Assembly: GCA_029864405.1 (NCBI GenBank)
Contig: JAOTTP010000008.1
Coordinates: forward strand, 1 to 64,000
Source: Nitrospirota bacterium
Lineage (GTDB): Bacteria > Nitrospirota > Nitrospiria > Nitrospirales > UBA8639
DNA length: 64,000 bases
Direction of reading: 5' to 3'
Of the stretch, positions 24,453-32,611 are shown piece after piece (positions within the stretch are counted from its first letter, which is position 1; every line of letters starts with the position of its first letter). Made by a program: the position numbers and the translations under genes. The notes under the pieces were generated by a model. It saw only the letters and a program-made list of their open reading frames with translations, did not search any database and was not told where the DNA came from.

Positions 24453-25793
24453 CTACCCTACTGGTGAATAGAAAGCCTGTGCGATTTCAGTCGCCAGAAA
24501 CAACATGGCACGGCTCTGGGTATAGCATGAATGGCCGAACAAATGCTGACGAGGAGATTCTTCTGCTTGTACCCCATATTCCACTAATAAACATTGTCCG
24601 TCATTAGCACATCGGGTCGTGCGCCGGGTACATTCCAGCCACCGCTCAAAGCCGTCATACGGTTCAAAAATTTCTCGAAAATCAACATTGGCCTGTACAG
24701 CCTCCGGACTATCCGGAAGAGCATCCGTGCCAGCCACCGCCAATTGTTGTACGTAATCGCCTCCCGTTTGATAGGGCATTTCCCACGCAATTTGAGGTAA
24801 TTCCATTTTAGCCAACCAACGCTTCCCATCGGCTCGAATCACACGGTGATTTACGAAATGAAGCAAATGACCAACCCCCTCGGTATCCCAGCCATAGCGG
24901 ACGGGGGTTCCCAACGTCACGACATCGACTGTCGAGCCGTTCAACACCGATTGATCCATGATAAACCGATACAGGCGTTCAAGTTGTTCTACAGACCGAT
25001 CCACTGAAGGGCACGCTTGCCAATATTTGGCCAAAATCTCAAAAACACGCCCCCTCCCCTCCGATTCCCCGCGGGTCAGAATATTCGACAATAAGGCTAA
25101 GACCTGACCGGCATGACCATGGCCAACGATGAGAAGCCGATCTTCCTTTGTCAGGGCAAGCCCCGAACTCCATTCTTGAAGATATAATAAGAGGTGTATT
25201 GCGGCTTCAACCCGGCCAACATGATGATTCATCGAGGACCAGACATATCGACCACAAGGAATCGATTGGCCGCTCCCTTGAGTCAGGGCATGCTCAAATT
25301 TCCTTACATACGCAGAGGAAAAATTTCCTACTTCCTGGGCGAGCACGTCCAACTTTTTGTGAGTTGGCGCATCGTTCGCTATAGGAGGCTGAAGGGAATC
25401 ATCCCGGAGACAAATGCCGTTTGTCGCAGGGCGAAGGAGTGCCAACAACGACTCTAAGCCTGATATTCCTCTGGAATATCCTCGCTTTAAACCTCCGACC
25501 TCATCTAATCTGGCAACCCCGAAGAGATCCATAAACGGATGGCCATTAAGGAAAAGGATTCCCTTCACTCGGGATTTGACCATGTGTTGGCCAATGCCAG
25601 CCATCGCTTGACCCCACGCAGGAGAATCCGGAGCCGCTCCCGGCTGAAAGGACCGGTAGTCCACCCGTGCACCAGGATCCAACTTGGAATAAGTGGAATG
25701 TTGGAAATTATTTTCGTGAGGCATTGGGAACCATCTGTGCGTGAGGACCCCATTACATAATGGATACCCTAGCCCTAGGGCAAGAGAAGCCAA
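24453..25793 (-). CDS. Unknown protein with hydrolase-like elbow
   Basis: 446 residues from a TTG (AGGAGG lies 11 nt upstream); the ATG at 25724 is an alternative. The stretch DRLLIVGHGHAGQVLALLS (about 217-235) looks like the beta-strand/nucleophile-elbow/helix of alpha/beta hydrolases, but the position of the catalytic serine is histidine (G-H-G-H-A-G). A later VDVVTLGTPVRYGWD resembles the LGTP strand of lipase-type hydrolases. A serine-hydrolase relative without its serine is the best guess; an unrelated fold is possible. No signal peptide is evident. It is divergent from the gene at 25982. Confidence 0.6.
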   Translation of the reverse strand: MASLALGLGYPLCNGVLTHRWFPMPHENNFQHSTYSKLDPGARVDYRSFQPGAAPDSPAWGQAMAGIGQHMVKSRVKGILFLNGHPFMDLFGVARLDEVGGLKRGYSRGISGLESLLALLRPATNGICLRDDSLQPPIANDAPTHKKLDVLAQEVGNFSSAYVRKFEHALTQGSGQSIPCGRYVWSSMNHHVGRVEAAIHLLLYLQEWSSGLALTKEDRLLIVGHGHAGQVLALLSNILTRGESEGRGRVFEILAKYWQACPSVDRSVEQLERLYRFIMDQSVLNGSTVDVVTLGTPVRYGWDTEGVGHLLHFVNHRVIRADGKRWLAKMELPQIAWEMPYQTGGDYVQQLAVAGTDALPDSPEAVQANVDFREIFEPYDGFERWLECTRRTTRCANDGQCLLVEYGVQAEESPRQHLFGHSCYTQSRAMLFLATEIAQAFYSPVG

Positions 25794-25981: not shown

Positions 25982-27034
25982 ATGAGCACTTCCAGAGTAC
26001 ACCACCACCGACATCATCGTGGTCACCTCATCCGGCATTTCCTCCTAGGCTTTAGCCTGACCTGGCTTGCGCTGATTGCCGGAACACCCTCGATTGCTTC
26101 AGCCACACAAACCGAACACATCATTCTGGTCGTGTTGGAAGGAATCAAATCATCATCTCTTCAAGGCGACGCTACTCCAACCATGGCTCGGTTGGCCAAG
26201 GACGGAGTCGTAACTTGGTCCGCACAATCCATTACACCACCCCTCACGGTGTCGGCGATGGCCTCTCTGCTCACCGGCCTTCCGGTCAAAAAGCATCGGG
26301 TGACAGCCGAGTGGGAAACGTACGATTTTGCACGCGCATTTATGCGCTCCCCCACCGTCTTTGATTATATGGATCTGGCTGGAGGAAAAGACACCGGGGT
26401 CTTTCTTATGGATGAACGGCTCTATCAATTGGTCCGACCGGAAATTTACGTCGACTCGCAAGTCTGTGGCTATTCCAAACCCCAATGCACACCTGAAACG
26501 GCAGCGATATACATCAAAGACTTTTTAGAAAAAATCACCAGCGAGAAAGGCTATGGGTTCCGGCTATTTGGAATGCCAAACCTGTTATTGGTGCATCTGC
26601 CTACGGCAGCCAAGGTTGGACAGAAATACGGTTGGGACTCCCAAAAATATTCCGCAGCCTTAACATCTATCGACACCGCTGTGGACCAAATCATCCAAAC
26701 GTATAAAGAACATGGAGTATTGGACAAAACGATGGTGATTATCACTGGGCTGAATAGCGGCCCTCTTCGTACGACTCAAGATGGTGCGAAACCAGTTTCT
26801 GCCGGCGTGCCCCCAACTGATTTAGATGCCACGATTCCCTGGATTGCCTGGGGCGCGAACATCAAGCGTAATTACCCCATCACACAACCAGTTTCCTTAT
26901 TAGATACGGGGGCGACCATCATGTATGCCCTCGGGTTAGAGACGCATACCGAATGGGACAGCCACGCTATTGATGATATTTTCCAGGCAGTTCCAGAACG
27001 ACAAACCACTGGAAATGAACCCCTAAAAAAGTAA
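25982..27034 (+). CDS. Alkaline-phosphatase-fold protein, probably exported and catalytically degenerate
   Basis: 350 residues. A His/Arg-rich N-terminus (RVHHHRHHRGH) precedes a hydrophobic export signal (about 19-41). The body follows the phosphodiesterase/sulfatase branch of the alkaline phosphatase superfamily: ILVVLEGIKSSSL, TPTMARLAKDGV, then the nucleophile-region ITPPLTVSAMASLLTGLP. The metal ligands are eroded: E53 replaces the first Asp, the usual D-x3-H-x3-H block near 207-216 reads T-A-A-K-V-G-Q-K-Y-G, and the late D-H pair is replaced in ITGLNSG. It may bind rather than hydrolyse a phosphate or sulfate ester. Start: ATG with AGGG 8 nt upstream. Confidence 0.65.
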   Translation: MSTSRVHHHRHHRGHLIRHFLLGFSLTWLALIAGTPSIASATQTEHIILVVLEGIKSSSLQGDATPTMARLAKDGVVTWSAQSITPPLTVSAMASLLTGLPVKKHRVTAEWETYDFARAFMRSPTVFDYMDLAGGKDTGVFLMDERLYQLVRPEIYVDSQVCGYSKPQCTPETAAIYIKDFLEKITSEKGYGFRLFGMPNLLLVHLPTAAKVGQKYGWDSQKYSAALTSIDTAVDQIIQTYKEHGVLDKTMVIITGLNSGPLRTTQDGAKPVSAGVPPTDLDATIPWIAWGANIKRNYPITQPVSLLDTGATIMYALGLETHTEWDSHAIDDIFQAVPERQTTGNEPLKK

Positions 27035-27041
27035 GAAGACC

Positions 27042-27488
27042 ATGAATCGAACACCATTTCACCGGCAATTCGGACATAGCATCTTCTGCCTGTTCCTCAT
27101 CGGTGTATTCCCTTTGCTTGTTCAACCAGGACATGCCACAGATCCAGTTAATCCTCTGTTGCGAGAGTTTCCCATTACCGTAAATCCGAGTGCGCTCACC
27201 CCCACCACTTGGTGGCATGTGCCAGGCATCACTCCGTTAATCTGGACAAAAGATCCCATCAATATGGACGCATACAAAACCTCTGAGTCCAGAACACTGA
27301 ACCTCAAGCCTGGAGAATATCGTTTTGGGACTTTTACCTTTGATTTCTTATTCAAAGTGACCTTATCCGGAACCTTGGAATTCGCGCCCACACTTGACCA
27401 ATGTATTGATGGACGAGGGACACAAGTCCTGACCATTCGTTGTACCCATACGCAACCCTATCCCCAAGAACCGGACTATCCGAAGTAA
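27042..27488 (+). CDS. Secreted hypothetical protein
   Basis: 148 residues. Signal peptide about 1-32 (IFCLFLIGVFPLLVQPGHA), then a beta-rich domain with LNLKPGEYRFGTFTFDF and two C-terminal cysteines (QCIDGRG and IRCTH) that could form a disulfide outside the cytoplasm. It starts 7 bp after the phosphatase-fold gene, so the two are probably one operon and may act together in the periplasm. No family recognised. Confidence 0.7.
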   Translation: MNRTPFHRQFGHSIFCLFLIGVFPLLVQPGHATDPVNPLLREFPITVNPSALTPTTWWHVPGITPLIWTKDPINMDAYKTSESRTLNLKPGEYRFGTFTFDFLFKVTLSGTLEFAPTLDQCIDGRGTQVLTIRCTHTQPYPQEPDYPK

Positions 27489-27512: not shown

Positions 27513-28901
27513 ATGTCGAATTCGGTGCAAGATTGGCTTGATGCCCTAGAAGATGTCGATGATGCCACCCGCGAGGAAGCGGCGAAGGCCCTTGCAGAAA
27601 AAGGTGACCCAAGCACCCTAGAACCTCTCTTAGTGGCCATCGAAGATGACTATTGGTCGGTCCGATCTCACGTGGGATGGGGACTAGCCAAAATCGGCGG
27701 AGAGAAAGCCATTGAAGGCCTCATTGCACTCTTCAACGACAGCATGATGGAAGTCCAAGCTGAAGCCGTTCAGGCAATGGCTTCCATGGGGAAAGGTGTC
27801 ATCCCCCAATTACTGAATGCCTTAAAAGACAAGCGGTGGCGAGTGCGCGAACAGGCTGCCAAAACCTTGGGAGAATTGCGTGACCCTCAAGCGGTCCAAG
27901 GATTGGCTCTTGTGTGTCGAGACCGGGATGGTGCAGTCAAGAGTGCCGCGGCAGAAGCCTTAGGCAAAATTGGAGACGCAAAGGCCATTCCAACACTGAT
28001 TAAACTCTTTAAAGATACGTCCAAGATCGTGCGGGAAACCGCAGGAACCGCGTTGATGTATGTTGGAAAAGAATCGGTCGATGCCTTACTTGAGTCCCTC
28101 AAAGATCCCCATTTCGTCGTGCGCTGTCACGCCGTTCGGACCTTAGGGGGCATGACGACGGACTATCAAATGGGGCGAGTGTGGGTACGTGAGGCTCGTG
28201 TCGTCGATGCCCTCATCGACATGGTAAAAGACCCCGATCGAGCTGTTCGCGAAGATGCCACAATTGCCTTGGGCAATATTGGAGATGCCCGTGCAGTGGA
28301 TGCCCTCATGGAAGCCATGAAAGATGGGGCAGTCAAACGCCACGCCATCGCTTCCTTAGGCATGATCGGAGATCCTCGCGCCTACCCTCCCGTCCTGGAC
28401 GCGTTAAAGGGCAAAGGCATCCATCAAGAAGGGAAGCCAACCCCTGGCTGCATTATCAGCGAAGAACTCTTAATTAAAGAAGCCGCGGCGACCGCCCTGG
28501 GTCATTTCCGACATCCCAAAGTCATTCCGGATTTGGTGCTGTTACTCAAAGACCTGGTCCTTCGGGATTATGCCGCCAATTCCTTGGTGTTAATTGGAGA
28601 CGCCGCCATTGAGCCACTCGTGTGGTTCCTCCATGACCCGGACTTATCTAAGGTCCAGCAAGAAAGCGAGCGGGTTCTCGCGTTTGCTACCACTCGAATG
28701 ACGGCAGGAGGTGCCCTCAAAAAAACGGTCTTAGACACCCTGGATAAACTCGGGTGGAAACCAACAGAAGGCGTCAGCAAAGAGACCAGAGAGATTGAAT
28801 ATACCGATACCTCGAATGTGTTAGGTGAGGGAGGGGAAGGCCGCTTTGGCAAGAGCGGTGACTTCGCCATGCCGGCCAAACCCCCGAAAATCGAACGGTA
28901 A
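27513..28901 (+). CDS. HEAT-repeat protein 1
   Basis: 462-residue soluble solenoid of about eleven to twelve HEAT/PBS-lyase-type repeats. Each is around 31 residues, with the pattern D-x-x-A-V-x-x-L-I-x-A-L-x-D...V-R-x-x-A-A-x-A-L-G-x-I-G-D. The C-terminal 55 residues (from about 405) break the pattern into a Gly-rich charged tail (LGEGGEGRFGKSGD). Such solenoids bind other proteins; no enzymatic residues are visible. A GGAAG site precedes the ATG, and the gene is 24 bp after the secreted protein. Four more HEAT genes lie at 34524-38236, beyond the betaine block. Confidence 0.88.
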   Translation: MSNSVQDWLDALEDVDDATREEAAKALAEKGDPSTLEPLLVAIEDDYWSVRSHVGWGLAKIGGEKAIEGLIALFNDSMMEVQAEAVQAMASMGKGVIPQLLNALKDKRWRVREQAAKTLGELRDPQAVQGLALVCRDRDGAVKSAAAEALGKIGDAKAIPTLIKLFKDTSKIVRETAGTALMYVGKESVDALLESLKDPHFVVRCHAVRTLGGMTTDYQMGRVWVREARVVDALIDMVKDPDRAVREDATIALGNIGDARAVDALMEAMKDGAVKRHAIASLGMIGDPRAYPPVLDALKGKGIHQEGKPTPGCIISEELLIKEAAATALGHFRHPKVIPDLVLLLKDLVLRDYAANSLVLIGDAAIEPLVWFLHDPDLSKVQQESERVLAFATTRMTAGGALKKTVLDTLDKLGWKPTEGVSKETREIEYTDTSNVLGEGGEGRFGKSGDFAMPAKPPKIER

Positions 28902-28952: not shown

Positions 28953-30635
28953 TCAGTCCCGCTGAAAGTGCAAAATTCCCCATGTGAGATGCCCTGCCAT
29001 TCCGGCATCGATCCAGTACTGCAACCCAACCTTCATACTGGCAAGATATTCCTCGGTACAGACACGAATGAGCGTGTGGTGTTGCGCAACAAGTTCTTGG
29101 AGCACCCGACTATAGTGCGCTGGTAAATTTTTGGATAAATTCACAATCTGTACTTCTTTAAATCCAAGATCGTTGGCCAATTGTTGATAATATTCAATAG
29201 ATCCCAAGGAATCTAAATGGATTCGGTCCAGAATTGGTTTCAACACATCAGGCGGACACTTCGCACTTTGCATAGGATCGGTGAACATGAACTGCCCACC
29301 TTTGGCCAACACCCTGAACACTTCTTCAAAGACTTTTTTACGGTCACCACTATGCAGAATGGCATCCTGCGACCACACGAGATCAACGCTGCCATCCGGC
29401 ATCGGAATATCCTCAAAACTCCCGTCAATGACATTAACCGCTAAACTCATTCGCTCTTTCTGATTGAGTTCTCGATTCCGCTTATTTTGGATTTCACTCA
29501 AATTCAGGCATCCAACCTGACACCCATATTGTCTCACGAGATAACGCGCTGAGCCTCCGTACCCCGACCCAATATCCAACACCCGGGTCTTCGAATTAAG
29601 ATTCTTGACAGAAGCCGCCATTTTCTCCACGGTCCGTCGGCTGGCATCAAAAATCGAATCCTTGTCAGATGTGTACAGTCCAATGTGGATATCTTCGCCA
29701 CCCCAAATCGTGGCATAAAACCGGTCAGCATCAGAACTGTTGTAATAGTCCCGAGCCGTGTCCACAGTGGTGGAATAATTGAGATTTCCAAATTTTCCCA
29801 TGATGGTGGTCGGGCGTTCCTCATTTTTATAGAGTTTTTCCGCCACATGAACATAAAAATCAGGATCCTCAACTTTATGGGTTTCTTGGAAGTCCGCATA
29901 GGTTTTCACTTGCTGAAAACCAACCTCATTCATGAGCCGACGTGTATATTCTTTCCGCAGCGGAAACATATTTAAATGAAACGCTTCGCCATCGGGAAAA
30001 GTATATTTGAACCTGGCGAGCCCTTCATCGACATGTTCCGGCTCCGCGCTGACATTGTCCCCGCAATAGTAATACACATGCTTCGAGGAAAACCCCTGAT
30101 CTAAAATTCCATCGTAATTCCTTTGATCCAGAATCAGAATCCCGTCATGTCTCAGCGCGGTGTAAAATTCGGCCAAGGCTTTTCGCCGGTCTTGCTCGGA
30201 AAAAAGATGGGTCAGAGAGTTCCCCAGACAAATCACCGCATCGTATTTATTGTGAATATCCCGGCTCAGCCAGCGCCAATCGGCATGAATGGTCCGCATA
30301 ATAAAGCCGGCTCGTCGAGCATTCTCAAAGGCTTGGGCTAACATTTCCGGACTGCCATCCGCACTGGTGACATCGAACCCGGCACGCAAGAGCCGAATGG
30401 AATGAAACCCGGTTCCCGTCGCGACATCCAATATGCGTTTGACGCCCCGCTCCTTCAAAAGCCGGATAAAAAAATCACCTTCACTGGAGGCACGGGCCTC
30501 CCAGTCAATCAAGGCGTCCCATTTTTGCACAAAACTCTGGACATACTCCTGCTTGTACAAATCCGTTTTTCTTTGAGCAATGGGGTTATCTCCATACATT
30601 TGCTCGCGACCGGTTATCGTGGCTTTCTCAGTCAT
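28953..30635 (-). CDS. Glycine/sarcosine and sarcosine/dimethylglycine N-methyltransferase fusion
   Basis: 560 residues with two SAM-methyltransferase domains. Domain 1 (about 15-270) resembles glycine-sarcosine methyltransferase, with the SAM motif LDVATGTGFHSIRLL and EMLAQAFENARRAGF. Domain 2 (about 290-560) resembles sarcosine-dimethylglycine methyltransferase, starting ARDYYNSSDADRFYATIWGGEDIHIGLY with SAM motif LDIGSGYGGSARYL. Together they would methylate glycine three times to glycine betaine, an osmoprotectant. Fused versions are known in halophiles. AGGAGG precedes the ATG. A BCCT transporter gene is divergent upstream, consistent with one osmoadaptation locus. Confidence 0.92.
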   Translation of the reverse strand: MTEKATITGREQMYGDNPIAQRKTDLYKQEYVQSFVQKWDALIDWEARASSEGDFFIRLLKERGVKRILDVATGTGFHSIRLLRAGFDVTSADGSPEMLAQAFENARRAGFIMRTIHADWRWLSRDIHNKYDAVICLGNSLTHLFSEQDRRKALAEFYTALRHDGILILDQRNYDGILDQGFSSKHVYYYCGDNVSAEPEHVDEGLARFKYTFPDGEAFHLNMFPLRKEYTRRLMNEVGFQQVKTYADFQETHKVEDPDFYVHVAEKLYKNEERPTTIMGKFGNLNYSTTVDTARDYYNSSDADRFYATIWGGEDIHIGLYTSDKDSIFDASRRTVEKMAASVKNLNSKTRVLDIGSGYGGSARYLVRQYGCQVGCLNLSEIQNKRNRELNQKERMSLAVNVIDGSFEDIPMPDGSVDLVWSQDAILHSGDRKKVFEEVFRVLAKGGQFMFTDPMQSAKCPPDVLKPILDRIHLDSLGSIEYYQQLANDLGFKEVQIVNLSKNLPAHYSRVLQELVAQHHTLIRVCTEEYLASMKVGLQYWIDAGMAGHLTWGILHFQRD

Positions 30636-31102
30636 TATGGGAACACCTCCTGGAGGGCCGCTGCCCTCACCACCTTCTTGAGTGATGGGTACAAGTGAGT
30701 AAAGGTCATGCGATTTCCACTTCTCATTAACCGTATTCGATTGGCAAATCCCGCAAAGGAAGAGCTGCGCTCTGTCTCAATGGACCAGAAATAAAAAAGG
30801 CCTCCGAACTTCTCCTGCGAGCGTAAGGAAGGCCCGATTGTTGCGTCAGAGGTTCAATCTAACCCGTGAGGTCCCTCTTAGCAACCCCTTTCGACCATTT
30901 ACCCGTCATTGAGCAAATCCAACATGCCTCATGTAATCAAAAGGTCTTAAAGGCTTATGACTACACACGTCATACACCGCCACCTACGCAAAAATTTACA
31001 CATCACCATAATTCTTTTCGGCTTGGCATGATCTGAGTTTTCCTTGTTCATCAACGCCAATTATGGTAAGGCCTAGCCTTCCCCATTCAATTCTATCGCT
31101 CC
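30636..31102. other. Divergent region between betaine synthesis and BCCT genes
   Basis: 467 bp with both promoters expected inside. The minus strand has a hairpin with a T-tract (separate entry). No ORF supported, and no known riboswitch consensus recognised. Confidence 0.45.
30793..30834 (-). terminator. Terminator-like hairpin in leader of methyltransferase gene
   Basis: On the minus strand GGCCTTCC pairs with GGAGGCC (one bulge) across about 21 nt, followed by six T residues. It lies about 160 nt upstream of the methyltransferase start, inside its likely leader. It could be an attenuator, or the end of a short upstream transcript. Confidence 0.45.
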
Positions 31103-32611
31103 ATGAACCCACTGAAATCCACCACCCTTGTCTTCAACATCTCCTGCGCCCTCGCACTCCTCTTCTTATTGTGGGGCGGGATAGCCCCGGAACATTTGGC
31201 CAAAATCACCGGCGCATTCCAAACGTCTCTTCTCGATTCGTTTGGCTGGCTGTATGTCCTGGCAGCAACGGGTTTTCTTGTTTGCGCTCTCTGTCTCATA
31301 TTTTCCCGATGGGGTGATATTCCGCTTGGACCGGATGGGGCCAAACCTGAATTTCCTCTGCTCAGCTGGTTTGCCATGCTGTTTTGCGCAGGCATGGGCA
31401 TCGGACTAGTGTTTTGGGGAGTCGCCGAACCCACCTCCCATTTTCACGATCCACCCATCGGCGAAGGAGGAACGCCTCAAGCCGCCCGCTTGGCGCTGCA
31501 ATATTCATTTTTCCATTGGGGGCTTCACCCTTGGGGCATCTACACCATGGTGGGGATGGCCCTCGCCTATTTTCAATTTCGAAAAGGCACACCGGGTCTG
31601 TTTAGTGCTGCCTGCCAGCCGGTTCTAGGCAGGCATGCCACCGGGCCACTGGGCACCACCGTGGATATCATCGCCGTCTTTGCCACAGTCTTCGGCGTGG
31701 CGACCTCTCTGGGATTTGGAGCCGTGCAGATCAGCGGAGGATTATTTTATGTGTTTGACGTGCCCAATACCCTCACTACTCAATTAGTCGTGATCGCCAT
31801 TGTCACAGTGCTCTTCATGCTGTCCGCTCAAACCGGACTCCATCGCGGCATCAAATACCTCAGTAATCTGAATATGATTCTGGCGCTGACTCTCCTGTTT
31901 TTCCTTCTGTTTCTCGGCCCGACCCACTTCATCATGACCGTGTTTCCCTCGACTTTCGGCCACTACATCCAAAACCTGCCCACGATGAGCCTCAATCTGG
32001 CGCCCTTCCGAGATTCCACCTGGATTCATAACTGGACGTTGTTTTATTGGGCCTGGTGGATCGCCTGGGCACCGTTCGTCGGCACCTTCATCGCGAGAAT
32101 TTCAAAAGGCCGGACCGTGCGCCAATTCGTGTTGGGCGTGTTGCTGGTGCCGTCGCTCTTTTGTGCCTTTTGGTTCACGGTCTTTGGGGGAACCGGGATT
32201 GCTTTAGAACTCTTTCAGGACGTCTCCTTGAAAACCGTCATGGAAACGCAGGGCATCGAGGTCTTGCTCTTTACGGTGTTGGAGCAATATCCGATGGGCA
32301 CGGTCATGTCGCTCATCGCCATCTTTCTCATCGGGACGTTTTTTATCACCTCAGCCGACTCCGCCACCTTCGTCTTGGGAACCTTAACCACCAACGGCAG
32401 CCTCAACCCGCCGAATCGCATTAAATTCACATGGGGAGTGATTCAATCCCTTTCGGCAGCCATCCTCCTGTGGTCAGGAGGACTCAAAGGCCTGCAAACC
32501 GGCGCCATCCTGGCCGCCTTTCCGTTTGTCTTTGTCATAATCATCCTCATCATCTCCCTCCTCAAATCCTTTCAAGAAGAAACAAAACAGCACAATTCTC
32601 AAAGAATCTAA
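31103..32611 (+). CDS. BCCT-family betaine/choline/carnitine transporter
   Basis: 502 residues with about twelve transmembrane helices. Signature stretches are GMGIGLVFWGVAEPTSHF (about 97-114) and the tryptophan-rich WAWWIAWAPFVGTFIARISKGRTVR (about 313-337, substrate and ion path). It imports a quaternary ammonium compound with Na+ or H+. The N- and C-termini are short, without the long regulatory tail of BetP. Placed divergently from the glycine betaine methyltransferase, it most likely scavenges betaine. A decayed copy of its 3' end lies at 33371-33430. Confidence 0.94.
   Translation: MNPLKSTTLVFNISCALALLFLLWGGIAPEHLAKITGAFQTSLLDSFGWLYVLAATGFLVCALCLIFSRWGDIPLGPDGAKPEFPLLSWFAMLFCAGMGIGLVFWGVAEPTSHFHDPPIGEGGTPQAARLALQYSFFHWGLHPWGIYTMVGMALAYFQFRKGTPGLFSAACQPVLGRHATGPLGTTVDIIAVFATVFGVATSLGFGAVQISGGLFYVFDVPNTLTTQLVVIAIVTVLFMLSAQTGLHRGIKYLSNLNMILALTLLFFLLFLGPTHFIMTVFPSTFGHYIQNLPTMSLNLAPFRDSTWIHNWTLFYWAWWIAWAPFVGTFIARISKGRTVRQFVLGVLLVPSLFCAFWFTVFGGTGIALELFQDVSLKTVMETQGIEVLLFTVLEQYPMGTVMSLIAIFLIGTFFITSADSATFVLGTLTTNGSLNPPNRIKFTWGVIQSLSAAILLWSGGLKGLQTGAILAAFPFVFVIIILIISLLKSFQEETKQHNSQRI

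Follow-up and report, generated by a model that had tools for sequence, protein, structure and literature searches.

The locus raises the question of what an apparently exported, phosphodiesterase-like protein is kept for when the residues expected to hold its metals have gone. The window, by which we mean the whole stretch of 64,000 nucleotides that was analysed, carries the gene for such a protein on the forward strand, and its stop is separated by 7 bp from the start of a second open reading frame.

25982–27034, + strand: ORF1, 350 amino acids from its ATG, a putative pseudo-phosphodiesterase of NPP fold (from Pfam, an AlphaFold model with fold search, and ligand columns)
27042–27488, + strand: ORF2, 148 amino acids, a secreted-looking beta protein and constant downstream partner

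ORF1 passes the cut-offs of two Pfam models, Phosphodiest (PF01663; 4e-19) and Sulfatase (PF00884; 1.9e-10). Its AlphaFold model, obtained from the 59 rows of alignment A1 (mean pLDDT 85.5), matched the Xac NPP entries (PDB 2gsn and 7n1s; Pfam PF01663) in a fold search with Z of 28.6–29.1 across 263–275 residues. By fold and descent, therefore, ORF1 is a member of the NPP/alkaline-phosphatase superfamily, and it has in common with Xac NPP the order of the motifs, a GH motif near position 105 and, presumably, export. The latter is suggested by residues 1 to about 41, which look by eye like a signal peptide; inspection of the model showed a single N-terminal hydrophobic helix (residues 14–32). 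The comparison with NPP structures had been proposed as a check in the preliminary description, and its outcome agrees with the exported alkaline-phosphatase-fold protein described there. A conserved pair of cysteines was also found in A1.

26465–26488, + strand: Cys162 to Cys169, conserved cysteine pair of ORF1

Both are present in all 59 rows, including those with an intact metal site, and may form a disulphide.

Positions of the site were taken from a phmmer alignment of ORF1 to Xac NPP (2gsn), whose D-E-A-G-H block and D-H pair we take to have their metal-binding roles in NPP. The corresponding columns were compared in 63 relatives, 56 of them with an eroded site (from the window's own family, f1, and a second family, f2) and seven with an intact one (family f3). 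Thr89 was located in these ligand columns, and the other three features from the 2gsn alignment as well.

26138–26140, + strand: Glu53, where NPP has its first metal Asp
26246–26248, + strand: Thr89, nucleophile position, Thr here and Arg in f2
26609–26623, + strand: A210-K-V-G-Q214, eroded D-x3-H block
26750–26755, + strand: L257-N258, eroded D-H pair

The erosion of the two ligand blocks, claimed earlier from the window alone, was evident on alignment to 2gsn: ORF1 reads A210-K-V-G-Q214 for D-E-A-G-H and L257-N258 for D-H. The altered residues, the conservation of which had been another proposed check, proved to be a property of all the eroded rows. Neither Asp210 nor Asp257 occurs in any of the 56, and His214 and His258 are found in one and three rows, respectively, so that both the D-x3-H metal block and the D-H metal pair are absent. 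The later His of NPP is also gone. Column 214 holds 11 different residues, which argues that no replacement ligand has been fixed there. When six site positions were scored, 25 eroded rows kept none, 27 kept one and four kept two. The f3 rows, on the other hand, retain Asp210, His214, Asp257, His258 and Thr89 in 7/7 cases, and two more His within the 258–285 interval are invariant as well.

Position 53 behaves differently from these. Glu is found here in 54/56 eroded rows (Asp in one, a gap in one), and Asp in six of the seven intact rows (Glu in the seventh). In an excerpt of PMC7576196, a Glu is given as a metal-site residue of EptA, LtaS and MCR-1; it is probably equivalent to position 53, and the change from Asp to Glu alone is therefore not counted as erosion. 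As for the nucleophile, the preliminary description had the surrounding region retained. The residue itself is Thr in the window's ORF1, one of 30/56 eroded rows with Thr89, and Arg in 23/23 rows of f2; three f1 rows have Pro or Ala. A catalytic function shared by all these proteins is unlikely in view of the Arg in f2.

A canonical active NPP, phosphatase or sulfatase as the identity of ORF1 was ruled out by the ligand columns: unlike ORF1, NPP has the D-x3-H block, the D-H pair and the later His. An automatic annotation as phosphodiesterase or sulfatase would be misleading.

The intact homologues of f3 (L104–L106, L149–L151 and L153) share 27 invariant residues with the eroded rows, including Cys162 and Cys169. 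The three included in A1 are 29–32% identical to the window's ORF1, and the eroded relatives in A1 37–81%. In a maximum-likelihood tree, the intact rows lie together behind one fully supported branch and the f1 rows behind another; f2 does not resolve as one group.

The loss of its catalytic residues might suggest that ORF1 is a decaying enzyme gene. We calculated dN/dS after excluding the N-terminal 42 residues of ORF1 and 30 of ORF2. The median was 0.157 for ORF1 (79 pairs with dS of 0.05–1.2; highest value, 0.64) and 0.192 for ORF2 (107 pairs; highest, 0.61); purifying selection acts on both genes. Moreover, 25 residues of ORF1 have been newly fixed, i.e. they are present in at least 95% of the eroded rows and absent from the intact rows, and ORF1 is found in 27/28 f1 and 108/109 f2 genomes. 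The decay reading, which we consider hardly credible, was rejected on dN/dS and distribution.

The newly fixed residues are concentrated in one segment.

26327–26470, + strand: residues 116–163 of ORF1, which hold 15 of these 25

As these 15 lie within 48 of 301 positions, the hypergeometric probability is 1.4e-7, a figure that overstates the case as the segment was picked post hoc. Asp128, Asp131, Asp137 and Asp144 are among the newly fixed residues, each in at least 95% of the eroded rows. With Glu53, and Thr89 where present, these Asp residues could make up a rebuilt single-metal or metal-free site, in which case ORF1 would still be an enzyme. The retention of Glu53 and Thr89 (54/56 and 30/56 eroded rows) and the fixation of the new Asp residues are in favour of this, and there is a precedent in YejM/PbgA (LapC), the periplasmic domain of which belongs to the same superfamily and is related in fold to ORF1 (Foldseek, 6vat, E 7e-14). 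According to an excerpt of PMC7576196, YejM is periplasmic and a reported regulator of outer-membrane properties; it is an inner membrane protein for which Mg binding and phosphatase activity are reported, with a different set of residues at its site (Asp268, Thr302, Asn403, Arg451 and His468). The inner-membrane domain of YejM/LapC has several transmembrane helices, unlike ORF1 with its one hydrophobic helix. The same excerpt gives Glu255, Thr300, Asp475 and His476 as the single-metal set of LtaS. With Asp257 in 0/56 eroded rows, ORF1 has neither the two-metal set of NPP nor the Glu-Thr-Asp-His set of the LtaS/EptA type, provided that the positions are matched as we infer, and the Arg at the nucleophile of f2 also argues against catalysis. 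An enzyme with a rebuilt site is therefore improbable, and a pseudoenzyme is the preferred reading.

We examined the distribution of both genes. In the window's own family, ORF1 was matched in 42/48 genomes and ORF2 in 43/48; five of the six genomes without ORF1 also lack ORF2, of which the remaining one carries a partial copy. When 395 genomes were drawn evenly from the phylum, ORF1 was matched in 138, and the matches listed were all in one order (f1, 27/28; f2, 108/109; f3, 3/3; f4, 0/3). ORF2 was also matched in 138/395, these being the ORF1-bearing genomes of the order minus G384 (f3) and plus G164, a genome of another order with weak matches. Profile searches found ORF1 in 7/8 and ORF2 in 6/8 f3 genomes, on separate contigs in all five genomes with both, and neither gene in four f4 genomes. 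When 146 genomes of the class were searched with a profile, full-length eroded copies of ORF1 scored above 460 bits and the f3 members 366 and 376 bits; the remainder were at or below 35 bits, except for a broken copy in G311 (172 bits). This partial ORF1-like copy (G311:C43:44189-44578), which has an internal stop, precedes the second pair of L142 by ∼2 kb.

From these counts and their kinship, f1 is probably UBA8639, f2 Nitrospiraceae, f3 NS-4 and f4 UBA2166. As stated in a part of PMC12342949, nitrite oxidoreductase is carried by Nitrospiraceae, UBA8639 and NS-4 and not by UBA2166, and NS-4 is the most deep-branching clade having it. The nitrite oxidoreductase marker TIGR03479 matched 235/235 genomes of the order, 0 of them above the cut-off, and so this marker alone cannot separate the nitrite oxidisers. 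A scan of contigs for relatives outside Nitrospirota, which reaches close relatives only, gave one contig titled Nitrospinaceae (L076; JAJDBD010000189.1) with the same gene cluster. In the tree, the ORF1 of this contig falls with L014 within the genus of the window, and the contig is probably mis-binned.

ORF2 was described earlier as a secreted, beta-rich partner of unknown family starting 7 bp on, and we came to the same view. Its N-terminus is an apparent signal peptide by eye, and it matched no Pfam or NCBIfam model and nothing significant in a profile search of the PDB. The beta core was modelled with confidence (mean pLDDT 80.2). The best match in the fold search (Z 7.0, a value also given by common arrangements) was to FbaB, which we take to be a CnaB domain, and the best in Foldseek was weak (E 0.09). 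The CnaB fold is a beta-sandwich with an isopeptide triad. The resemblance of ORF2 to CnaB/SpyCatcher-type beta domains is thus a weak one of fold, with no sequence relation found by profile searches, and may reflect merely a common beta-sandwich in the model. G164 has several stretches similar to ORF2 in its large reading frames (L166; G164:C2:165000-173000), and one weak ORF2-like stretch was observed in a 3828-residue frame in the window's family (G028:C1:506543-506698). ORF2 may therefore be a secreted beta module used elsewhere too.

Next to the pair are two further conserved genes.

27513–28901, + strand: HEAT-repeat gene, third of the run, no apparent signal peptide, starting 24 bp past ORF2
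24453–25724, − strand: c2, upstream of ORF1 and divergent from it, a strongly conserved protein, family unknown

Neighbourhoods were counted for 77 ORF1 places distinct by sequence, with the places having enough sequence as the denominators. ORF2 lies at most 1 kb downstream of ORF1 in 68/68 eroded and 0/7 intact places; conservation of the gene pair, the remaining check proposed in the preliminary description, is thus complete among the eroded forms. The HEAT-repeat gene follows in 41/47 eroded places, and c2 is upstream in 40/45. The six places without the HEAT-repeat gene are second copies of the pair, found in both families (L068 and L070 in f1; L111, L135, L137 and L142 in f2), and the places that lack c2 number five, namely L130 and four of the same second copies. 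A gene for about 780–830 amino acids, c19 (no Pfam match in the one member scanned), comes after ORF2 in every second copy but L137, where it is upstream instead. Many f2 loci (e.g. L138 and L109) have several more HEAT-repeat genes after the first. Between 25600 and 29100, promoter and terminator predictions (zero and three, respectively) were not above those for shuffled sequence.

Other observations concern the surroundings. A GHGHAG stretch in c2 is lipase-like, but Gly stands at the expected nucleophilic Ser (Gly in 28/29 aligned rows, Ser in L118), and judged from this motif c2 may be a second pseudoenzyme. As an alpha/beta-hydrolase it found no significant match: the best PDB profile hit was a lipase with E of 0.22, and Pfam gave nothing consistent over 29 members. 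At 28953–32611 of the window, translations read by eye point to a long methyltransferase-like protein (− strand) and then a BCCT-like transporter (+ strand), resembling a set for osmoprotectant methylation and uptake.

Constant adjacency does not by itself make ORF2 the binding partner of ORF1. ORF1 could be a binding pseudoenzyme with a different partner, the two genes being merely co-transcribed and having separate roles in the envelope. In a mirror-tree analysis of 54 loci, the partial correlation of ORF1 with ORF2 given c2 and HEAT was 0.05, compared to 0.77 for ORF1–HEAT and 0.46 for ORF1–c2. Co-evolution of the pair is thus not in excess, and the analysis lends no support to direct contact with ORF2 in particular. 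The separate contigs of the five f3 genomes with both genes also indicate that ORF2 can serve without an adjacent ORF1. The adjacency in all 68 eroded places and the occurrence of both genes in the second copies speak against separate roles, and we consider this alternative rather unlikely, though the most serious of those weighed here.

Our preferred reading, with a probability of roughly 0.55, is that ORF1 is an exported pseudo-phosphodiesterase kept for binding, which forms a module with ORF2 outside the cytoplasm. The ancestor in the order would have been an enzyme of NPP type whose two-metal site was intact, a state still seen in the deep-branching f3. On the branch to f1 and f2, the metal site would have been lost, the gene fixed immediately 5′ of ORF2 and the conserved segment 116–163 newly arisen, such that a new surface came under selection and the scaffold was kept. 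The present role of ORF1 would most likely be binding, not hydrolysis, and the module may serve to hold an anionic ligand, or else a protein, within the cell envelope. Of the periplasmic binding or signalling pseudo-enzyme proposed earlier, the pseudo-enzyme part stands on the fold, the lost blocks and the constant partner; binding or signalling, or a role as a scaffold, would be its putative function.

Nitrospira-type bacteria are major nitrite oxidisers. More speculatively, the pair could be an envelope module specific to the nitrite oxidoreductase-bearing Nitrospirales, in which the former phosphodiesterase is now a structural or sensing subunit, e.g. of the periplasmic apparatus that oxidises nitrite, or of the redox partners of that apparatus. 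Co-distribution is what suggests this tie, and we regard the reading as unlikely. A part of a 2025 comparison lists 140 genes typical of Nitrospira-type nitrite oxidisers, many of unknown function (PMC12342949). Our literature search, covering only the leading results of the larger result sets, gave no paper that we recognised as treating the ORF1–ORF2 pair. A keyword look-up in portions of PMC6606698 and PMC8115632 returned no phosphodiesterase, sulfatase or alkaline phosphatase, and the parts of PMC8387239 on nitrite oxidoreductase hold nothing on a phosphodiesterase-like protein or the pair.

The picture is one of a probable order-wide pseudoenzyme of NPP fold that has a sister with its site intact and a partner that stays the same, and nearly every genome drawn from f1 and f2 has the pair. 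With f3 as a living sister, lost catalysis and shifted constraint can be examined by comparing the two forms directly. If our reading is true, f3 keeps the state before the switch, and the change from enzyme to pseudoenzyme would be traceable within one order.
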